Shown: in pieces, positions 4,461 through 37,413 of the stretch
Numbering within the stretch: position 1 is the stretch's first letter
Layout of the letters: each line of letters opens with the position of its first letter
Virus record (IMG/VR): IMGVR_UViG_3300024262_000086
Span: 1 to 40,291 of that record
Direction: 5' to 3' (one strand)
From: a virus
Length of the DNA: 40,291 bases
The notes under the pieces: model-generated
Database searches by the model: none
Told to the model about the DNA's origin: nothing
What the model saw: the letters and a program-made list of their open reading frames with translations, nothing else
Program-made: the position numbers and the translations under genes

Positions 4461-5798
4461 CTACACGCTCACGGTGCCGGTGACGGTGATGTTGTGGATG
4501 GCGCCGGCCAGGTCGGCGGTGAACGTCACCCCGGTCAGGTTGCGCGCGGTCTTGTTGGCTGCGCTCACGTCGGCCACCAGCGGGACGAACACGGCGTCGG
4601 CTGCCAGCGGCGCCACCAGCCCGTTGCGCACGCCCTGCTCCAGCCGCTTCTGGATGATGGCCTCCACGGACGCGATGCCCTTGTCGGTGAACGCCACCTT
4701 CTTCTGGGCGATGAGCAGTGCGATCAGGTCCTCCTGCATCCGCACCCGCAGCCAGTCCAGCCCCCGGGTCACGTCGATGTAGTCCTCACCCGTGGTGCCC
4801 CACAGGGTGATGTTCACGCTGGCCTCGGTGATGTAGTAGTTGGCGTCGTTGACCTCTGCGTAGCCGCGCTGCGCAGAGCTCAGGCTGTCCACGGTGATGG
4901 AGCTGAGCGTCTTGAAGCACCAGGTCTGGGAGCCCGGGTCGAACGGCAGGCGGTCGCCCAACCAGGCGGCGTCGATGTACTCCGTCGCGGCCAGGCTGTG
5001 GTAGATCACCGCCGTGTAGGCGTAGGCGTTGGTCTTGGCCGTGTAGGCGATGCTGGTGGTGTCGCCGGTGGTGATGATCGCCGGGTCGCTGGTGGCGGCG
5101 ATGAACAGCTTTCGGTTGGTCTCGGCCCAAGCCATGATCAGGAGCTGGTCAGCCTTGTCGCCCACCGCGCGGTCGTCCGCGCAGCACAGCCCGTACCAAT
5201 CGTCGTCCAGGGTGACGATGGCGCTCAGCGCGTCGTCACTGGCCTCGATGGTGCTCTCGGCTGCGCCCACCGTGAGCAGCGAAGCCTGTGCCACGGGGCG
5301 CTGTGCGGAAAAGCCCGCCCCGCCCACAGCATCGATCTGCACGTCGTCGGCCACGTTGGTCGCGCCGACCTCTGTCTCACCGTTGGTGATGGCCAGCGCC
5401 AGGCCGTCTGCGATCTCCGTCTGGGTCGCGCTCGCATCCGAGGTGAACGTGTAGGTGCGGGCCGTGCGATTCAGGTCGGTCGCGATGGAGATCGTGTAGT
5501 CGGTGAGGTTCACCACCGAGTCCACGGTGACCGTGACCCGAGCGCATTTGCGCTGCCCGATGGCCACCTGCGTGGGCGCCGGGTTCTGGGCGAAGTGATC
5601 CACCACCGCGCCGTAGATCGCATCGCTGCTGGGGACGCCGAGCGCGGCCAGGTCCGCGGCATAGGCGCTCTGGCTGATCCACTCGATGCGGTGGAAGTGA
5701 GCCGTCTTGCCCAGGATCAGAGCCTTGCCGAAACCAGCGCGCGAGATGTTCGCCGTGGTCTTGCTGATGGTGATGGTGACGATATCGGAGAGGGCCAT
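4461..5798 (-). CDS. Contractile tail sheath protein (DUF3383-like)
   Basis: A 445-residue protein beginning MALSDIVTITISKTTANISR. Features shared with DUF3383 sheath proteins are the N-terminal TITISKTT strand, ALILGKTAHF, the alanine-rich mid-domain, the segment LYTAVIYHSLAATEYIDAAW-like around residues 270-300, a LPFDPGSQTWCFKTL motif, and the C-terminal DLAGAIHNITVTGTVSV. The central part (residues 85-200) is a beta-rich insertion likely exposed on the outer surface. The C-terminal domain is the conserved sheath core that links rings. Neighbouring tube and terminator genes fit. Role: polymerises around the tube and contracts at infection. Confident call from family motifs and order. Confidence 0.85.
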   Translation of the reverse strand: MALSDIVTITISKTTANISRAGFGKALILGKTAHFHRIEWISQSAYAADLAALGVPSSDAIYGAVVDHFAQNPAPTQVAIGQRKCARVTVTVDSVVNLTDYTISIATDLNRTARTYTFTSDASATQTEIADGLALAITNGETEVGATNVADDVQIDAVGGAGFSAQRPVAQASLLTVGAAESTIEASDDALSAIVTLDDDWYGLCCADDRAVGDKADQLLIMAWAETNRKLFIAATSDPAIITTGDTTSIAYTAKTNAYAYTAVIYHSLAATEYIDAAWLGDRLPFDPGSQTWCFKTLSSITVDSLSSAQRGYAEVNDANYYITEASVNITLWGTTGEDYIDVTRGLDWLRVRMQEDLIALLIAQKKVAFTDKGIASVEAIIQKRLEQGVRNGLVAPLAADAVFVPLVADVSAANKTARNLTGVTFTADLAGAIHNITVTGTVSV

Positions 5799-7655: not shown

Positions 7656-8645
7656 CTAGGAGATCACGTCGCGCAGGAAAATCCCGAGGTCGGAGGCGGT
7701 CAACTTCTGGTCCCAGTAGATGATGGCCTCGTAGTCGGTCCGGTTGCCCTTGCTCGGCCGGGGCACCTTGCGGACCACGACCTGGCTGCCCTTGGGCGCG
7801 TCGGTCGGGGTAGCCCACAAGAAGGTGTAGCCGGCGCTCGGCACGCGCGGGCTGGGGCTCGGGGTGCGGTAGGCCAAGAGGATCGACTTGCCGAAGATCT
7901 TGGTCATGTTGGCGGTGCCGCCCTCGGGGCCAGCGTTGTAGATGGCCTGGCCGATCACGACCTCGCCCACGCCGAACAGCCCGGCGAGCATCTGCTGCGT
8001 GACCACGGCGCCGTCGCGGGCACCGGTGTACTTGATCCGATCCTGGATCGCAGCGTTGGTCTGCAGGTGGTCCATGATCTCGCCACCCACCACCGCGATG
8101 TTCGGCATGAAGCCGGTGTTGTCGAACACCGCGCGCTTGGCCTGGGTGATGGTTTCCACCGGGTCGGCGCCGGTGGCGTCGAGCTGGAGGAACTGGTTGG
8201 CGATGGGTCCCGCGGCGACGCCGGCCCAGTCGGTGCCCCATACACCCTGGAGGAAGTAGTTGGCGGCCCAGCTGCGCTCCATCTTGGTGCGGTGCGCCTG
8301 CATGAGCTGCTGCACGACCAGCTCCTCGGGGTCGATGGACCCGTCGTCCATGGCGATGTCCTCGGGGGTGAGGAAGTCGCGCAGGCCGTACTTCTGGCAG
8401 AAGAACGACTCGTCCGAGAACGATGCGGTGTCGATGGGGGCGGCCTGGCCGGGAGCGACCTCCTGGGCCTCCAGCCGCAGGAGCTCGTTGACCGAGTACT
8501 TGCGGTACAGGTCCGACTGCTTCGGCACCGGCGCCATGGGGAACACGCGGCTGGCCACGTAGATCCCGGGGTCCTGCAGGTAGGCCATGCCGACGTTGCT
8601 CAGGAGTCCGTCGACGTGTCGGTCTGCCGGGGTGGGTCTGGGCAT
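7656..8645 (-). CDS. Major capsid protein
   Basis: A 329-residue protein beginning MPRPTPADRHVDGLLSNVGM. Family-typical segments are ASRVFPMAPVPKQSDLYRKY, FCQKYGLRDFLTPEDIA, a helix-rich spine with AHRTKMERSWAANYFLQG, IAVVGGEIMDHLQTN and a C-terminal GYTFLWATP ... VVRKVP ... YEAIIYWDQKLTASDLGIFL. This is a common myo/siphophage major capsid family with the HK97 fold. It forms the icosahedral shell around the scaffold and is likely processed or stabilised by the neighbouring protease and decoration proteins. A strong ribosome-binding site (AAAGGAGATATCAG before ATG) suits high expression. A perfect hairpin lies just upstream at 8690-8716. Confidence 0.9.
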   Translation of the reverse strand: MPRPTPADRHVDGLLSNVGMAYLQDPGIYVASRVFPMAPVPKQSDLYRKYSVNELLRLEAQEVAPGQAAPIDTASFSDESFFCQKYGLRDFLTPEDIAMDDGSIDPEELVVQQLMQAHRTKMERSWAANYFLQGVWGTDWAGVAAGPIANQFLQLDATGADPVETITQAKRAVFDNTGFMPNIAVVGGEIMDHLQTNAAIQDRIKYTGARDGAVVTQQMLAGLFGVGEVVIGQAIYNAGPEGGTANMTKIFGKSILLAYRTPSPSPRVPSAGYTFLWATPTDAPKGSQVVVRKVPRPSKGNRTDYEAIIYWDQKLTASDLGIFLRDVIS

Positions 8646-16608: not shown

Positions 16609-18195
16609 CTACTCCTTGGACGCTGCAGGCTGCTTGACCGGCTTGGCGGTGATCATCTTGCGGGCTGCGTCCTCGGCCAGGCCGAGCACATTGACCATAA
16701 TGGCCACCGCGGCGTCTGGCGACATGGTGCCCTGTTGGACGGCGGTGCTCAGATCCACGATGGCCCCGATCCCGCCGACGGTCTCCAGCAACTTGTTGGT
16801 GCGCCCCACGTCCCCGGCCGCAGCATCGCCATCCCCTGCGCCCGCCCCGCCCCCATCTCCAGCGGACGGCTCGTCGTCGTCCATGTGCAGCGGCTCGGGC
16901 AGCCCCGCGGCCCGGCGCACATACCGCTCCAGCTCCTCGTCCGGGAACAGCATCATCCCGGCGCTGGCCATCTTCGAGAGGAACTCGCCCAGGGCCCCGA
17001 GGTCCCGCTCCTCGATGTCGCCCGGAACGATCTGCGGCAGCGGCCCGGACCAGCCGTTGAGGGCGAACAGCCGCGGCACCTCGACCCGGTTGAACGTGTC
17101 GGCGATGCTCGTGGCCCACGCCCCCAGCGCGGTGGCGAAGATCTCGGTCTTGCTACTGGCCAGGGCGAACGAGCCCACCTTCTGCTGGCCCAGCAGCACG
17201 AAGTCTGCCAGCACCGTCACCGCGATCATGGTGTTGTAGCGGTCGACCACGCTGCTGGTGTCGATGGTGGTGCGGCCAGAGCTCGACAGCAGTTCGAAGG
17301 TGAACATCTCGTTGCCCTGCTCATCGCGCAAGGAAGGGAAGACCACGCCCATCTGCTCATCCAGCCGGACGTTGCGCACCAGCCGCTTGAGCTGGTCCAC
17401 CATGGCCTTCTCCGCGGCCGATGCGCTGCTGCTCAGATACTCGGCTGGCACCTTGGCCATGGGCATCCCGGTCAAGTTGCGCTCGATCCCGATGGCCTCA
17501 CATACCTCGATCTTCTTTTTGAAGAACCACGGTTGGTATGCCGACCTCAAAACCGAGCGTCCCTCGGGCGACCCTTTGCGGCTGGTGGTGCGGAACAGGA
17601 TCAGCCGCTCGGACACTATGTCGACCACCTCGTAGGTCGGCGGCGCCATCTGCACCATGCCCTCGACCTCGCCGTTGTCGCTCAGCATCCAGTTGTAGAT
17701 CGTGTCTTGGGCCCGGGTTGGAAGCTTGGCCCACCCTATCTTACCGTCTTCGTGCTGGCTCGCCACGGCGGCGCCATGGCCGCGTCGTAGCTTGTAGACC
17801 GGGTGCGTCGCTTGCCAGCCGTAGACCAGCATCGAAAGGATCTCAGAGATGACCTCGGACCACGGCCGGTCCAGGTCGTCCATGCACTCCCGGAGGAAGT
17901 CAGCGTTGGCCTGGTCCTGCTCGTCATCGCTGGCCGCGTCCACGTCCCACGTCACCTGGCGCAGCAGCATCTCGATGGCGAACAGCACGGCGCCGACCAC
18001 CGGGTCGTTCTCGCTCATCTCCTGGAAGACCTCGCGCCCGCGCTTGCCCTTGAGCTTCGGGTTGAACTCCTCGTCCAGGATCCCGCCGAAGTGCTTGAGC
18101 CCTGTGGCCCCGAGCTCAACGGTGTGGTCCTTGATGGTCTTGGGTCCCCTGGCAGGGGCGGCGGGCTTGCGGGCGGCGGGCTTGCGTGTGGCCAT
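16609..18195 (-). CDS. Portal protein (Mu gp29-like, DUF935)
   Basis: A 528-residue protein typical of the DUF935 portal family. It has a basic Ala/Pro-rich N-terminus (RKPAARKPAAPARG), then FQEMSENDPVVGAVLFAIEM, LRQVTWDVDAAS, MLVYGWQATHPVYKLR, VDIVSERLILFRTTSRKGSP and RSVLRSAYQPWFFKKKIEVC. The C-terminal clip/stem region includes DEELERYVRRAAGLPEPL, followed by a Gly/Asp linker and a helical tail. Portals form the dodecameric ring through which DNA enters and leaves. It sits between terminase and MuF as expected. The ATG at 18195 lies five bases after a promoter-like TAGGCT and has no clear ribosome-binding site, so a leaderless mRNA is possible. Confidence 0.9.
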   Translation of the reverse strand: MATRKPAARKPAAPARGPKTIKDHTVELGATGLKHFGGILDEEFNPKLKGKRGREVFQEMSENDPVVGAVLFAIEMLLRQVTWDVDAASDDEQDQANADFLRECMDDLDRPWSEVISEILSMLVYGWQATHPVYKLRRGHGAAVASQHEDGKIGWAKLPTRAQDTIYNWMLSDNGEVEGMVQMAPPTYEVVDIVSERLILFRTTSRKGSPEGRSVLRSAYQPWFFKKKIEVCEAIGIERNLTGMPMAKVPAEYLSSSASAAEKAMVDQLKRLVRNVRLDEQMGVVFPSLRDEQGNEMFTFELLSSSGRTTIDTSSVVDRYNTMIAVTVLADFVLLGQQKVGSFALASSKTEIFATALGAWATSIADTFNRVEVPRLFALNGWSGPLPQIVPGDIEERDLGALGEFLSKMASAGMMLFPDEELERYVRRAAGLPEPLHMDDDEPSAGDGGGAGAGDGDAAAGDVGRTNKLLETVGGIGAIVDLSTAVQQGTMSPDAAVAIMVNVLGLAEDAARKMITAKPVKQPAASKE

Positions 18196-24544: not shown

Positions 24545-24925
24545 TTAAAACGGCAAATCGTCGTCGTCCATGGGCGGAGGCGCATCGCGGCGCCCGCCAC
24601 CGGACCCGCCCTTCTTGTCCAGGAAGATGACGCTGAACGCCACGATCTCCGTGGTGTAACGGTCGTTGCCCTCCTTGTCCTGCCACTTCCGGGTCTGCAG
24701 CCGGCCCTCGACGTAGACCAGCGATCCCTTGGACAGATACTCTTTGCAGTTCTCGGCGGTCTTGCCGAAGCATGTGACCCGGTGCCACTCCGTCCGCTGC
24801 TCGCCGTCCTTGGGCTTGTAACTCGTGGCAACGCTCAGGCTGGACACCAATGTGCCGCTGGTGGTGGAATTGATCTCCGGGTCCTGGCCCAGATGCCCGA
24901 TGATCATCACTTTGTTCAGGTTCAC
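24545..24925 (-). CDS. ssb: Single-stranded DNA-binding protein
   Basis: A 126-residue SSB. The OB fold is clear: [73 protein letters not shown] and [10 protein letters not shown] glycine/arginine linker follows, and the acidic tip is MDDDDLPF, the usual protein-docking peptide of bacterial SSBs. The start is GTG with AGGAGG five bases ahead. It is the first gene leftward from the divergent control region. It coats single strands during replication and recombination, and the acidic tip recruits partner enzymes; the same tip appears on the exonuclease at 35,716-36,705. Confidence 0.95.
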
Positions 24926-24962
24926 TCTAGCCTCCTGCGCTGAGGGTTCATCTCATCTTTGA

Positions 24963-24971
24963 TGGTATACT
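24963..24971 (+). promoter_or_regulatory. Extended -10 promoter, rightward
   Basis: TGGTATACT is an extended -10 (TG-n-TATACT) with five of six matches in the hexamer, in the divergent gap. No good -35 precedes it, which is normal for the extended class. It overlaps the -10 of the leftward promoter because GTATAC is self-complementary. Confidence 0.4.
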
Positions 24972-24994
24972 AATGCCAATGTGCATTTTGTCAA
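24964..24994 (-). promoter_or_regulatory. Leftward early promoter before ssb
   Basis: On the minus strand TTGACA (24989-24994) and TATACC (24964-24969) are 19 bases apart, in the AT-rich gap ahead of ssb. The spacing is slightly long but the boxes are good. It should drive ssb, the helicase and probably the genes beyond. Confidence 0.5.
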
Positions 24995-25013
24995 CAACTA
25001 ATACTTGACGAAA
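24986..25013. repeat. Inverted repeat, possible operator
   Basis: TTTTGTCAA (24986-24994) and TTGACGAAA (25005-25013) are near-perfect inverted repeats (one mismatch) around a ten-base centre. The left arm covers the -35 of the leftward promoter and the right arm the -35 of a rightward one. A dimeric ribbon-helix-helix protein from the next genes is a plausible binder. Confidence 0.4.
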
Positions 25014-25033
25014 TAACTTCCATGAGCTAATTC
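25005..25033 (+). promoter_or_regulatory. Possible second rightward promoter
   Basis: TTGACG (25005-25010) is 17 bases from TAATTC (25028-25033), a weak -10. The leader to ATG 25056 would be short but contains a full AAGGAGG. The TACT-TTGACG context recalls the promoters near 33,014 and 36,761. Confidence 0.3.
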
Positions 25034-25055
25034 TGTTTCATCAAGGAGGTCCCCA

Positions 25056-25229
25056 ATGAAGATGGTCCGTATTTCAGACGCGCTCGCTGACCGGCTCGAT
25101 GCCGTGCGAGATCGCATTGCGCAAGAGAACAGCGTCATGTCCGTCACCAGGGAGCAAGCAGCGGGCATGCTCATCGAGGAAGGGATCAAGGCCCGGGAGG
25201 ACGATGAGCCAAAGGCTGCAGAGGGGTAG
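25056..25229 (+). CDS. Small ribbon-helix-helix-like protein
   Basis: A 57-residue protein starting MKMVRISDALADRLDAVRDR and continuing IAQENSVMSVTREQAAGMLI. A short strand (MVRIS) followed by two helices is the ribbon-helix-helix layout of Arc/MetJ-type regulators. AAGGAGG lies at ideal distance from the ATG. It is the first rightward gene beside the divergent promoters and their inverted repeat, so an autoregulatory repressor role is likely, though inferred. It ends one base before the next start. Confidence 0.6.
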   Translation: MKMVRISDALADRLDAVRDRIAQENSVMSVTREQAAGMLIEEGIKAREDDEPKAAEG

Positions 25230-32606: not shown

Positions 32607-33007
32607 CCGAAGACAATAGCGAGATGTTCGCGATCAAAAAGGAAATCACTATTCGTCTGCTGGAGGGCGATATTGTCGTTCTGCTGGTGGACGGCCAGCG
32701 CGAGATCCCCGCGGACATCGCCGCCGCGCAGCACCGCGTGGGCGAGATCTTGGGTCTGCAGGAGAGCAAGCGCGAGCGCAAGCAACGCAACATTCTCAGC
32801 GATGCCGAGGCCGCTGAGCGGGTCCAGGAGCTCTATGCGCCGGGCTCGGAGATCACCGTGGCGATGCTGAGCAGCCTGCCGGGCTACGGAGAGCATCGCG
32901 CTACCGGCCTGATGGGCAAGCTCATTGACCGGGGAGTGGTTGTGCAGGAGCGCAACGGCGCGTTCTTCATGGCCGGCGGGGACGAGGAAAACCCGCCCGT
33001 CGATTAA
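32603..33007 (+). CDS. Unknown protein with a winged-helix-like C-terminus
   Basis: A 134-residue protein starting MTEDNSEMFAIKKEITIRLL. The first half is alpha/beta (VVLLVDGQREIPADIAAAQH) with a basic helix (LQESKRERKQRN). The second half (EITVAMLSSLPGYGEHRATG, LMGKLIDRGVVVQERNGAFF) resembles a winged helix-turn-helix. It overlaps the RusA-like gene as ATGA and ends ahead of a promoter. It could regulate the recombination genes or be a DNA-binding accessory; both are inferences. Confidence 0.5.
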   Translation: MTEDNSEMFAIKKEITIRLLEGDIVVLLVDGQREIPADIAAAQHRVGEILGLQESKRERKQRNILSDAEAAERVQELYAPGSEITVAMLSSLPGYGEHRATGLMGKLIDRGVVVQERNGAFFMAGGDEENPPVD

Positions 33008-33013
33008 TTACTC

Positions 33014-33042
33014 TTGACTCGCGCTGGTGCTCTCGCTACCAT
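33014..33042 (+). promoter_or_regulatory. Promoter for the recombination operon
   Basis: TTGACT (33014-33019) and TACCAT (33037-33042) are 17 bases apart. The flanks TTACTC before the -35 and GC before the -10 recur at 36,755-36,788 (TTACTA ... GCTACTAT). Transcription would start near 33,050, just at the first copy of the leader repeat. Confidence 0.6.
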
Positions 33043-33049
33043 CATCATC

Positions 33050-33160
33050 AGAGCAGGGGAAAGCTCAGACAACAAAATTCGATTCCTCCCCCGGCCTTGC
33101 GGTGCGCCCTCCCCCTGCTCCCCGCTCGGCCGGTGGGAGGTCTTTTGGAGCAGGGGAAAA
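33050..33160 (+). ncRNA. Structured leader with predicted pseudoknot over the ribosome-binding site
   Basis: CCTCCCCCGGCC (33085-33096) pairs with GGCCGG-T-GGGAGG (33128-33140) in a 12-pair stem with one bulge. Its loop holds CCCCTGCTCC (33112-33121), exactly complementary to GGAGCAGGGG (33147-33156), the ribosome-binding region of the next gene, so an H-type pseudoknot can form. A second copy of GAGCAGGGGAAA lies at the 5' end (33051-33062) and could compete for the same loop. This looks like a switch or translational operator. Pairings are exact in the sequence; the function is inferred. Confidence 0.5.
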
Positions 33161-34647
33161 TGCACATTGACCGAGTTTACGTGCGGGCCATTCAGGCGGC
33201 CCGCGAGATCGAGATCCTCAGCGCCGGCCACGACGTGGTCGAGCTGGCGGGGCCCAACGAGAGCGGCAAGACGACCACGCTGGACGCGGTGGTTTACGCG
33301 CTCTGCGGCGCTGCGGGGGTCAACCCGGACGCGCTGCGCCACGGGGAGACTGACGGCGAGGTGACCGTGGAGGTGGGCGAGCTGGTCGTCACCCGCCGCT
33401 TCGCCGGCCCCGGCAAGGGCCGCCTGACCATCAAGCCGGCCGGCGGCCAGCGGGACCTGGATGCGCTGTACAGTTCGTTCAGCTTCGCGCCGCTGGACAT
33501 CGCCACGCGGCGCCCGGGCGAGACGGCCGCGGCCTTCCGCCGGCGGGTGGTGGACGCCCTGACCGGGCTGGCCGGGCCGGACTTCGCCGCCTCCCTGGCC
33601 CGGGCCGACGCGCGCATCGCCGACGCCGAGGCCATCCGCCGGGACGCCAAGCGGGACCTGGCCCGGGGGGGCAAGCTGGTGGCGCCGACCGAGGTGGCCC
33701 GGGTGGACACCGCCGCGGTGGAGCAGCAGCTCAAAGATGCAGAGGCCCACAACGACGCGGAGCGGGCGCGCCACGACGGCGAGCGCGCGGCGCTGGTCAA
33801 GGCTGACCAGGAGCGCCAGCGGCTGGAGGGGGACGTGGAGCGGGCGGCCGCGGCGCTGGACCGCGCCAAGCTGGCGATGGCCGCCGCGCTGGGTGAGTGC
33901 AATGAGGCCGAGGCTGCTGTCGGTGTCGCCTACGGCCACGCCATGGAGCCCGACTGCAGCACCGACCACAAGGACATGCGCGTTCGCTGGACCAGGGTGT
34001 CGGAGACCGCCTCGCTGGCGAAGAGCGCGCACAGCCACGCGGATCAGGCCGACATCAACCTCGGCCAGGCCGACGGAGACCACTGCGACGCCGTCGCCGC
34101 GCTGGAGGCCCTGCCGCCCCTGCCGGACGTGACCCCGCCGGACCTGCGCGACACCGAGGACCTGCGCGGCCAGCTCATCGAGGCCGGCCGCACCAACGAG
34201 GCCGCTGGCGCGTGGGAGACCTACCAGACCGCCCTGCAGGAGCGCGCCGACCTGGCCCGGACCGCGGGCGATGCTGAGGCCGAGCTGGAGGCCGCGCGCG
34301 GAGCGCGGGTCAACGTGCTGGCCAGCGCGGAGCTGCCGCTGCCGGGCATCACCTGGGACGAGGAGGCGGTGTACCTCGACGGCGTGGCCTGGGAAAAGCT
34401 GAGCACCGGGCGCCGCTGGCGGGCCGCGGTGGACCTGGCCATCGCTGCCAACGAGCGCGCGGGCCGGGCTCTGCGGGTGCTGTTCATCCGCGAGGGCTCG
34501 TTGATCGACCGCAAGAACTTCGCGGAGATCACCGAGGCCGCCCGGAGCAAGGGTTATCAGGTGTGGGTGGAGAGCGTCAGCGCGCACACCGACACCGCGT
34601 TTGAAATCGAGGAGGGCCGGGTGGTTTCGACGCCCGAGCCGTTCTAG
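33160..34647 (+). CDS. SbcC/Rad50-like ATPase
   Basis: A 495-residue SMC-like ATPase. The N-terminal half has Walker A AGPNESGKTTTLDAVVYALC near residues 30-49, and the C-terminal half an ABC signature LSTGRRWRAAVDLAIA and a Walker-B-like LRVLFIREGSLIDRKN. Between them lies a 250-residue Ala/Glu/Arg coiled coil (VEQQLKDAEAHNDAERARHD, QERQRLEGDVERAAAALDRA). It is far smaller than bacterial SbcC (about 1,050) and no SbcD-like nuclease is seen. Phage versions often sit beside RecT and exonuclease and probably help process recombination ends. Start from ATG 33160; a longer frame into the leader is rejected. Confidence 0.8.
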   Translation: MHIDRVYVRAIQAAREIEILSAGHDVVELAGPNESGKTTTLDAVVYALCGAAGVNPDALRHGETDGEVTVEVGELVVTRRFAGPGKGRLTIKPAGGQRDLDALYSSFSFAPLDIATRRPGETAAAFRRRVVDALTGLAGPDFAASLARADARIADAEAIRRDAKRDLARGGKLVAPTEVARVDTAAVEQQLKDAEAHNDAERARHDGERAALVKADQERQRLEGDVERAAAALDRAKLAMAAALGECNEAEAAVGVAYGHAMEPDCSTDHKDMRVRWTRVSETASLAKSAHSHADQADINLGQADGDHCDAVAALEALPPLPDVTPPDLRDTEDLRGQLIEAGRTNEAAGAWETYQTALQERADLARTAGDAEAELEAARGARVNVLASAELPLPGITWDEEAVYLDGVAWEKLSTGRRWRAAVDLAIAANERAGRALRVLFIREGSLIDRKNFAEITEAARSKGYQVWVESVSAHTDTAFEIEEGRVVSTPEPF

Positions 34648-34656
34648 GAGGAGACC

Positions 34657-35712
34657 ATGGCAGAGCACAAAGAGGCGACGTTCGACGGCGAGCAGGTGGT
34701 GGTGGACGGCGTGAGCGCCGAAGAAAAGACACTGCTGGATGAGGTCGTGCGGGAGACCAAGCTGCGGGGCGATCCGGTCTACGCCCGCATGACCGGCGAC
34801 GACCCACTGGCTGACGTCTGGCGGCTGGGCAAGTTGATTGCCGAGTCGGGCCTGTTCGGGGTCAACAACCCCGCGCAGGCCGCGGTCCTGGCCCTGGAGG
34901 CGTACCACCAGCAGCGGCCCGTGACCGAGCTGGCCCGCCGCTACCACGTCATCGAGGGGCGGCTCTCGATGCGCGCCGACGCGATGCAGGCGGAGTTCCA
35001 GGCCGACAAGGGGCGGGTCCGCTGGCTGGAGAGCACCGGGGCGGTGTGCCGCGCCGAGTTCTCCCACCCGGACTTCGCGCCCGAACCGGTGGAGGTCGAG
35101 GTGACCTTCGCCGAGATGGATCGGGTCGGTATCACCAAGGGCAAGAGCGGCCTCAAGAAAAACTGGCGGCAATTCCCCCGCCAGATGCTCAGGGCCCGGG
35201 CCATCTCCGAGGGCGTGCGCATGGTCCACCCGGGCATCGTCGTGGGTGTCTACTCGCCCGAGGAGGTGTCGGACTTCGACCTCCGAGAGGTGCCGCTGGA
35301 GACGCCGCCGGCGCGGCCGGCCGTGAACCGGGGGGCGCAGCGTGACACCAATCCGGCCAGCAAACCCGCGCCGCGGCAGGAGCAGGAGCAGGAGCAAGAG
35401 CGGCGGCAGAGCAGGGACCGCGCCCCCGAGCCGCAGGAGGAGCGGGAACGGCAGGAGCCCGCACAGGCATCCGAGGTCCTGCCCGTCTGGATCACCAAGG
35501 CCATGAGAGCCCTCAAGCCCCTGGGCGTGCTGCGCGAGGACCTGGAGGGCGACGGTGGCCGCGGCCTGGCGCTGCCGGCCACCGCATGGGACGAGGGCGA
35601 GCACAAGCCGCTGGTGATGGCCATCTACCGCGAGCTGATGGCAGTGGCCCCCGGCGAGCGGCCCAAGCTGGTGCGCGAGCTGTTCGAGCTCGGCGCGGGC
35701 GCGGAGGGCTGA
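34657..35712 (+). CDS. RecT-like single-strand annealing protein
   Basis: A 351-residue protein. The core (residues 30-220) contains LIAESGLFGVNNPAQAAVLA, YHVIEGRLSMRADAMQAEFQ, VEVEVTFAEMDRVGITKGKS and LRARAISEGVRMVHPGIVVG, typical of RecT-family annealing proteins. The middle is a low-complexity, Gln/Glu/Arg-rich linker (QEQEQEQERR), and a small C-terminal helical domain ends ELFELGAGAEG. It anneals complementary single strands made by the 5'-3' exonuclease directly downstream, the usual pair. AGGAGGAG precedes the ATG. It lacks the SSB-like acidic tip that its exonuclease partner has. Confidence 0.8.
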   Translation: MAEHKEATFDGEQVVVDGVSAEEKTLLDEVVRETKLRGDPVYARMTGDDPLADVWRLGKLIAESGLFGVNNPAQAAVLALEAYHQQRPVTELARRYHVIEGRLSMRADAMQAEFQADKGRVRWLESTGAVCRAEFSHPDFAPEPVEVEVTFAEMDRVGITKGKSGLKKNWRQFPRQMLRARAISEGVRMVHPGIVVGVYSPEEVSDFDLREVPLETPPARPAVNRGAQRDTNPASKPAPRQEQEQEQERRQSRDRAPEPQEERERQEPAQASEVLPVWITKAMRALKPLGVLREDLEGDGGRGLALPATAWDEGEHKPLVMAIYRELMAVAPGERPKLVRELFELGAGAEG

Positions 35713-35715
35713 GCG

Positions 35716-36705
35716 ATGGAGTACAGGACCGCCACAATCGACACCGGCTTTCTCACCCGCCGCGCCTTCTCGGCCAGCGGCCCAGCCGCCGCCATCGGCG
35801 CGTCCGTCGCTCTCTACTGCCGCCTGGTGCGGGACTTCGGCGCCGCGCAGGTGGTCTTCGCGTTGGAGGCCCAGGACGAGCAGAAGGGGGTCTTCCGCCG
35901 CAACATCGCGCCGGACTACAAGGGCAAGCGCAAGCCGCCGCCCGCCGAGTACCTGGCCACCCTTGCCGAGCTGCGCGAGCACTTGCCGCTGTTGGGCGCC
36001 TGGCAGGCGTGGAGCGAGGCCGAGGCAGACGACGTGGCCTACACCATCAGCCGCGAGTGGCCCGGGCCCCACCTTCTGTGGAGTGCTGACAAGGACTGGT
36101 TGCAGTTCCTCGACGACGGTGTTGACCTGCTGCGCCCGGACTGCTCCCAGCGCCCGCGCGATGTGCCACCAGAGGAGTGGCGCCGGCCCGGGGACGCGCT
36201 CATCACCGCCCGGACCTGCCAAGAGCTGACGGGGCTCACCCCCTCCGGATGGTACGAGTTGCTGTGCCTGGCCGGCGACCCGGTGGACGGCATCCCGGGC
36301 CTGCCGCGGGTGGGCAAGGGCCGGGCCGAGACCATCCACGGCGCGGCCCCCACGCTGGTGCGCGACCTGCTAGCAGCGGCCGGCGACCGCGGCCCGGTCC
36401 CCGACGACGAGGCCATGCGCCAGCGCGCCCTGGTGGCCGCCACGGCTCCCGAGCAGGCGCAGTGGGTGGAGGTGGCCATCCGCGAGATCGACGCCCTACG
36501 CGTCAGCGCAGCCCTCGTGCAGCCCTACCGCGTGGAGCTCCAGCTGGAGCCGCCCGTCGAGGGTGGGCTGGAGGACCTGCGCAGCTGGCTGGAGGGGCAC
36601 GACCTGGGGGCGATGTTCGAGCAGGTGGCCCAGCTCATTCCGGACGCCGACGACGTGGCCGCCCCTGCGGCGCAGGTAGTGGACGATGACGACATTCCGT
36701 TTTGA
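35716..36705 (+). CDS. 5'-3' exonuclease (PIN/T7 gp6-like) with SSB-like tail
   Basis: A 329-residue nuclease of the polymerase-I 5' nuclease type. It has IDTGFLTRRAF at the start, YKGKRKPPPAEYLATL near residue 68-83, EADDVAY near 103-109, SADKDWLQF near 123-131, and the DNA-binding GDPVDGIPGLPRVGKGRA near 196-213. The aspartates of these motifs form the two-metal site. It resects 5' ends to expose single strands for the RecT-like partner. The C-terminus is acidic and ends VVDDDDIPF, strikingly like the SSB tip DDDDLPF. The stop codon overlaps the -35 of the next promoter. Confidence 0.85.
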   Translation: MEYRTATIDTGFLTRRAFSASGPAAAIGASVALYCRLVRDFGAAQVVFALEAQDEQKGVFRRNIAPDYKGKRKPPPAEYLATLAELREHLPLLGAWQAWSEAEADDVAYTISREWPGPHLLWSADKDWLQFLDDGVDLLRPDCSQRPRDVPPEEWRRPGDALITARTCQELTGLTPSGWYELLCLAGDPVDGIPGLPRVGKGRAETIHGAAPTLVRDLLAAAGDRGPVPDDEAMRQRALVAATAPEQAQWVEVAIREIDALRVSAALVQPYRVELQLEPPVEGGLEDLRSWLEGHDLGAMFEQVAQLIPDADDVAAPAAQVVDDDDIPF

Positions 36706-36731
36706 CATACCCGCCCCGCTCCGAATATACA
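36702..36731 (+). promoter_or_regulatory. First promoter of the right-end operon
   Basis: TTGACA (36702-36707) and TATACA (36726-36731) are 18 bases apart. The -35 includes the TGA stop of the exonuclease gene. The surrounding gap is AT-rich, unlike the genes around it. Confidence 0.5.
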
Positions 36732-36760
36732 TCTATTTTACACATTGGTAGTTTTTACTA

Positions 36761-36788
36761 TTGACGATGCTAGCGATGATGCTACTAT
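36761..36788 (+). promoter_or_regulatory. Second promoter of the right-end operon
   Basis: TTGACG (36761-36766) and TACTAT (36783-36788) are 16 bases apart, with TTACTA ahead and GC before the -10, matching the promoter at 33,014. The -10 lies six bases before an in-frame ATG at 36795, so a leaderless start there is possible; the next ATG at 36828 has a ribosome-binding site. Confidence 0.5.
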
Positions 36789-36827
36789 CTAAATATGAAC
36801 AGCGAAACAAACAACCCGGGAGCGAAC

Positions 36828-37121
36828 ATGGACAACATCAACAAGATCATCGAGTCGGTACGACGCGCCAGCCCCCTCCGCTGGGAGACCCCGGTCGAGA
36901 CCGCCCGCCAGGTCATGCTCGCCAAGACCCTCGGCAACAAGACCATCGACACCATCTGCGACATCTGGGGCCTGAGCATCGGGCACGCCACCCGCCTGGT
37001 GCAGGAGATCAAGGCCCAGCGACAGGCCGACCGCAGCGCGGGTCAGAGCACCGCCGACGCCAGGGCCGACCGCATCCTCAACATCCGCAACAGCAGCGGG
37101 CGCGCCACCCCGCGCCGCTAA
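36828..37121 (+). CDS. Small possible HTH protein, first of right-end operon
   Basis: A 97-residue protein from ATG 36828 (GGGAG ahead), or 108 from 36795. It has RRASPLRWETPVETARQVML, then NKTIDTICDIWGLSIGHATR, LVQEIKAQRQADRSAG and a polar tail. The CDIWGLSIGHATRLVQEIK run could be a helix-turn-helix. As the first gene behind two promoters it may be a regulator. The two possible starts might reflect the two promoters. The function is unknown. Confidence 0.5.
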   Translation: MDNINKIIESVRRASPLRWETPVETARQVMLAKTLGNKTIDTICDIWGLSIGHATRLVQEIKAQRQADRSAGQSTADARADRILNIRNSSGRATPRR

Positions 37122-37143
37122 CCAACCAACAAGGAGCAGGGGC

Positions 37144-37413
37144 ATGACCATCCATATCAGCCACAGCAACGGCCGCACCGAGAGCCACGACACCGCGCAG
37201 GAGGCGTGGGCCAGCATCATGGTCAACTACCCCGAGGCCTACGTGATGCGCGAGTCCGGGCAGGAGGAGTTCGCCGACGCCGAGGACCTTGAGATGCTGA
37301 CGGTCGCCGGCTTCGGTCTGGTCGAGGACAGGGCCCTCGTCTGGGAGGACGAGGACGCCAGCGAGGATGACGACGGATCGGGAGCCGTGGCCAGCATCAC
37401 GATGGAGGATTAG
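37144..37413 (+). CDS. Small acidic protein, unknown
   Basis: An 89-residue acidic protein starting MTIHISHSNGRTESHDTAQE, with WASIMVNYPEAYVMRESGQE and a run of Asp/Glu near the end (WEDEDASEDDDGS). AAGGAG lies before the ATG. Strong negative charge and small size are typical of DNA-mimic or host-enzyme inhibitor proteins, but nothing here proves that. No family recognised. Confidence 0.45.
   Translation: MTIHISHSNGRTESHDTAQEAWASIMVNYPEAYVMRESGQEEFADAEDLEMLTVAGFGLVEDRALVWEDEDASEDDDGSGAVASITMED

Follow-up and report, generated by a model that had tools for sequence, protein, structure and literature searches.

The window, the whole stretch of 40,291 nt analysed here (positions 1–40291), represents a contractile-tail phage, for which very few relatives turned up in the collections searched. 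Genes for its tail sheath, head and portal lie on the minus strand, and an operon for an SbcC-like ATPase, a RecT-like annealing protein and a 5'–3' exonuclease lies on the plus strand behind an intergenic gap of 152 nt. Within this gap, the ATPase leader contains a strong hairpin, termed S1, a short U-tract and two copies of the ribosome-site sequence. The features are as follows:

4461–5798, minus strand: tail sheath gene
7656–8645, minus strand: head gene
16609–18195, minus strand: portal gene
33014–33042, plus strand: predicted sigma-70-like promoter, TTGACT-17-TACCAT, a consensus match only, with a start site expected at about 33049–33050
33051–33062, plus strand: upstream copy of the ribosome-site sequence, GAGCAGGGGAAA, a direct repeat of 33148–33159
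33085–33096, plus strand: 5' arm of S1, CCTCCCCCGGCC, from sequence inspection, folding and shuffles
33097–33127, plus strand: loop region of S1, 31 nt with a weak inner helix, from folding
33112–33121, plus strand: loop element CCCCTGCTCC, exact complement of 33147–33156
33128–33140, plus strand: 3' arm of S1, GGCCGGTGGGAGG, with T33134 bulged, from sequence inspection and folding
33141–33146, plus strand: terminator-like U-tract TCTTTT, following S1 with no gap, and equal to linker L3 in the pseudoknot model
33147–33156, plus strand: ribosome-binding site GGAGCAGGGG, with the Shine-Dalgarno core GGAG at 33147–33150, 9 nt before the ATG
33160–34647, plus strand: SbcC-like ATPase gene (phrog_1499), with the P-loop GPNESGKTT
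34657–35712, plus strand: RecT-like annealing protein gene, second in the operon
35716–36705, plus strand: 5'–3' exonuclease gene, after RecT in the operon

The ATG at 33160 is the correct start of the ATPase, the N-terminus of which lines up with those of its relatives. From the promoter match, it is plausible that the mRNA begins near 33050. The initial annotation placed the upstream copy at the predicted 5' end of the transcript, and relative to the promoter match the copy does span about +1 to +12, the start itself being a prediction only. A consensus scan returned two promoter-like sites in the last 10.3 kb of the window, where 0.5 are expected. The second (36761–36788, TTGACG-16-TACTAT, with TG before the second hexamer) lies in an AT-rich gap before the gene at 36828. 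In addition, an antisense open frame of 1111 aa (33004–36339, minus strand) spans the whole ATPase-RecT-exonuclease operon, probably as a side effect of codon usage at high GC.

Re-reading of the sequence confirmed every coordinate and base that had been assigned to the S1 stem, the loop complement and the 12-nt copy. S1 consists of 12 Watson-Crick pairs (33085–33096 with 33128–33140), 11 of them G-C, interrupted by the single bulge T33134. The complementarity between its loop and the ribosome site is exact over 10 nt and extendable on neither side, while 9 nt of the upstream copy (33051–33059) are able to pair with loop positions 33112–33120. Between S1 and the ATG there is only TCTTTTGGAGCAGGGGAAA, in which the U-tract, with five U in six positions, is followed by GG, and the 3' end of S1 stands 7 nt from the Shine-Dalgarno core.

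These features are not what shuffled sequence usually yields. In dinucleotide shuffles, a complement to the ribosome site of at least 10 nt had p=0.005 per leader and a direct repeat of at least 12 nt had p=0.0004 per leader, values uncorrected for the 50 genes and for the post-hoc choice of features, and the two never occurred jointly in 5000 shuffles. A stem of at least 12 pairs with one bulge was seen in 4 of 1000 shuffles (about 0.004). When the window's 50 gene starts are ranked, the ATPase leader comes first both for the length of its ribosome-site complement (10 nt, next 8) and for that of its direct repeat (12 nt, next 8). Corrected for the 50 genes, the complement alone is not significant and the combination of repeat and complement is. 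The complement by itself is not compelling because the features were chosen post hoc and about 0.25 ten-base complements are expected by chance over 50 genes per window; such a complement accompanies three of the window's 488 GGAG sites. The fold energy of the whole region 33045–33165 is ordinary (z=-0.74), as expected for GC-rich sequence.

The hairpin itself stands out most clearly in its position beside a U-tract. When hairpins directly upstream of each U-tract (5 of 6 T) were scanned on both strands of the 40-kb window, S1 ranked first at -35.4 kcal/mol, with the next independent site at -30.5, and no hairpin of matching strength at the U-tract end arose in 400 dinucleotide shuffles. With each of the 5' and 3' ends that were tried, nested folding gave S1 as the best or a near-best structure. 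A strong GC-rich hairpin with a U-tract, albeit a short one, right after the stem is what an intrinsic terminator presents, whereas the loop of 31 nt far exceeds the usual length of about 3–10 nt. A standard terminator scan restricted to loops of up to 8 nt did not report S1, owing to its long loop and short U-tract. The initial annotation interpreted S1 as the scaffold of a pseudoknot, which is possible, but overlooked the TCTTTT directly after the stem that makes S1 terminator-like.

Judged by layout, a hairpin and U-tract about 90 nt past a promoter-like site and 7 nt before the Shine-Dalgarno core is a putative attenuator geometry, in which the position between promoter and first gene rests on the consensus-matched promoter. 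We therefore tentatively favour, at somewhat less than an even chance, a reading of the leader 33050–33160 as a promoter-proximal terminator-like brake, either an attenuator or a leaky terminator, with capping by the loop as a possible second brake. The GC-rich S1 and UCUUUU would act in cis to limit expression of the ATPase-RecT-exonuclease operon. Many transcripts may end near 33146, in which case operon mRNA would come only from read-through, and in the read-through mRNA the C-rich S1 loop may cap the Shine-Dalgarno sequence just downstream. No antiterminator was recognized in the leader; two alternative folds that might serve as one exist, of which the pairing of the loop with the ribosome site comes close to S1 only for some 3' ends and the pairing with the upstream copy is worse. 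Attenuation by a leader peptide was considered and rejected, as reading 33050–33140 by eye showed no start codon preceded by a ribosome site; the sole in-frame upstream start, TTG at 33097, lies inside the S1 hairpin.

It is also conceivable, and deserves serious weight although we consider it unlikely, that this is ordinary GC-rich intergenic DNA in which the complement and repeat arose by chance or local duplication, with no regulation and a hairpin that at most stabilizes or ends a transcript. The unremarkable fold energy of the whole region fits such an origin, as does the repeat, which runs 3 nt (AAA) past what pairing with the loop needs, as a duplication would. Nor is the ribosome-site sequence peculiar to this leader: the same GGAGCAGGGG serves the gene at 37144, and the C-rich loop pairs with many GC-rich ribosome sites. 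Against this reading, a single leader combines three features for each of which p is no more than about 0.005, and neither the joint repeat and complement nor the hairpin at the U-tract was reproduced by shuffling.

A purely translational brake, in which the S1 loop blocks the Shine-Dalgarno sequence through an H-type pseudoknot or through a helix S2 that replaces S1, something relieves the block and no decoy takes part, is distinctly doubtful. S2 denotes the pairing of loop 33112–33121 with the ribosome site 33147–33156, and pseudoknot energies were estimated crudely with simple H-type penalties. As in pseudoknots that sequester a Shine-Dalgarno sequence, a hairpin loop is complementary to the downstream site, here by 10 exact nt, the best among the 50 gene starts. 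The crude pseudoknot energy is likewise the top one among these starts in a bulge-free scan (-21 against -16.7 for the next). The S1+S2 pseudoknot was estimated at -41 to -35 kcal/mol, as against about -38.5 for plain S1 plus the minor hairpin that the ribosome site forms locally (about -3), and thus lies within about 3–4 kcal/mol of the plain hairpin. The 6-nt linker must cover a 37 Å path over the 12-pair stem with a reach of 42–46 Å, which is tight yet sterically allowed. The pseudoknot over its own ribosome site that had been proposed earlier is hence possible in steric and energetic terms but is not favoured, being roughly iso-energetic with the plain hairpin.

When S1 and S2 were compared as mutually exclusive plain hairpins, they were near-equal only for the 3' ends 33200 and 33300, whereas for the remaining 3' ends S1 was ahead of S2 by about 4–8 kcal/mol. 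The chance expectation for ten-base complements given above also speaks against a purely translational brake, and the arrangement was seen in no homologue. By loop duplex energy, moreover, at least six other ribosome sites in the window pair as well or better, the leader's own site ranking only 7th of 50, because the loop is C-rich and the ribosome sites of this phage are GC-rich. The sequence GGAGCAGGGG recurs exactly at 37133–37142, where a small unknown gene (37144–37413) uses it for ribosome binding, and the S1 loop is its exact complement too. Action of the loop in trans on this site was rejected as a candidate, since many GC-rich ribosome sites pair equally by energy.

The initial annotation went further and proposed that the one loop pairs with either the upstream copy or the ribosome site, the outcome setting translation on or off, in response to a ligand, a protein or a signal of the phage stage. 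Such a three-part switch is very unlikely. The exact direct repeat of 12 nt close to the predicted mRNA start is itself improbable (p=0.0004), and the loop can pair with 9 nt of it; moreover, the loop is made before the 3' arm of S1, so that pairing with the upstream copy could form first. However, this pairing falls short of S1 by about 8 kcal/mol when nested and by roughly 6–16 kcal/mol when knotted, a deficit that leaves the upstream copy energetically uncompetitive. There is no sign of a ligand, protein or stage signal. Neither a ligand nor a protein site is recognizable in the leader, and Rfam offers no match. Competition between the two copies at equilibrium is thus unlikely, although a co-transcriptional version remains conceivable. 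An elaborate form would be no likelier than the switch itself: here a terminator hairpin would also supply, with its loop, an anti-Shine-Dalgarno element, and during transcription a decoy copy at the 5' end would give way to the real site, so that attenuation is coupled to translational control of the recombination operon. It is extremely unlikely that copies of GAGCAGGGG (two direct, one inverted) form a DNA operator bound by a phage repressor near the promoter: three copies do fall within 110 bp and the upstream one lies just behind the predicted start, but other promoter regions (24925–25060 and 36705–36828) have no copy, the centres lie about 61, 36 and 97 bp apart and so out of helical phase, and of two further copies one serves as a ribosome site (37134) and the other falls in coding sequence (18633).

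Protein searches covered 2.9 million viral contigs, 50,697 phage records and bacterial genomes, and no close relative of the phage was found in any of these, although very near records may be missing. The ATPase protein matched one locus (36%), the DnaB-like helicase reached 25% at best, and RecT matched 13 loci (best 60%), of which the two inspected closely, L003 and L004, have a different upstream gene. For the exonuclease, the major head protein and the gene upstream of the ATPase, protein searches returned no relatives, and the DNA search with the phage gave no match. A profile search with the ATPase family added 80 distant loci, the leaders of which are not alignable. Among the 81 ATPase relatives, 61 start within 10 nt of the upstream gene or overlap it, and only 8 have a gap of more than 60 nt before the gene. 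In annotated phages of Arthrobacter, Gordonia, Corynebacterium, Caulobacter and others, the ATPase gene similarly lies close to its neighbour, with no more than 80 nt between them. An 8-nt complement to the ribosome site in a true leader was present in none of the 81 relatives, the sole 8-nt case overlapping the upstream gene. No homologous leader was found among the relatives, and the leader appears to be lineage-specific among the ATPase relatives found.

A strong leader hairpin does occur in two of nine relatives with a leader of more than 60 nt. In L106, a textbook intrinsic terminator (a GGGCGAC-hairpin, then eight T) lies about 100 nt upstream of 2926, before the ATPase homologue, and in L035, the Glutamicibacter phage BIM BV-113, a GC hairpin with z of about -5.9 lies in the 80-nt gap 1512–1591 before the homologous ATPase. 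These two hairpins mildly favour the plain terminator-like reading of S1. A search of viral contigs for the pattern CCCCTGCTCC-N-GGAGCAGGGG gave 14 contigs, and all were rejected as unrelated palindromes, coding repeats or promoter-flanking repeats. In six unrelated contigs (L018, L020, L023, L024, L026 and L027), an inverted pair of GGAGCAGGGG flanks a TATAAT-like element and is followed by AAA as here; the arrangement appears to be an operator or promoter element conserved in a different group of phages.

Comparison with known systems places the leader near several of them. No family of Rfam 15 reached its gathering threshold in the window, and matches in the leader were at chance level only. 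The leader resembles operon-leader attenuators of the trp, pyr and riboswitch type in having a GC-rich hairpin and U-tract between a predicted promoter and the first gene that end just before the ribosome site. It differs in its short U-tract and 31-nt loop, and no leader peptide, antiterminator or ligand domain is apparent. The preQ1-I type III riboswitch is an H-type pseudoknot of about 30 nt that sequesters the Shine-Dalgarno sequence; its P1 helix is short, it has a ligand pocket, and it shares with the leader a pyrimidine-rich hairpin loop complementary to the downstream Shine-Dalgarno sequence (PMC10622847). Unlike it, the phage leader has a 12-pair S1 and 10 loop pairs, without a ligand core or Rfam match. 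In the gene 32 operator of T4 and RB69, a pseudoknot (about 28 nt in T4) 5' of the Shine-Dalgarno sequence nucleates binding of gp32 on UUAAA repeats (PMC535899). The likeness is that of a phage recombination or replication gene with a putative structured leader beside the ribosome site, whereas the UUAAA/UAAA repeats before the start are absent here. In the fluoride riboswitch, a ligand-bound pseudoknot lies upstream of an intrinsic terminator and controls it, so that pseudoknot and terminator share one leader (PMC11077080); in the phage leader, by contrast, the terminator-like hairpin's own loop would form the knot.

Regulation by this leader is a prediction from a single genome. If functional, it would be a compact case of one hairpin that brakes transcription and also caps the ribosome site. 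The brake would precede an ATPase-RecT-exonuclease module, the dosage of which phages may need to limit. It would also be a lineage-specific regulator in a family whose members are mostly coupled tightly to the upstream gene and have no leader.
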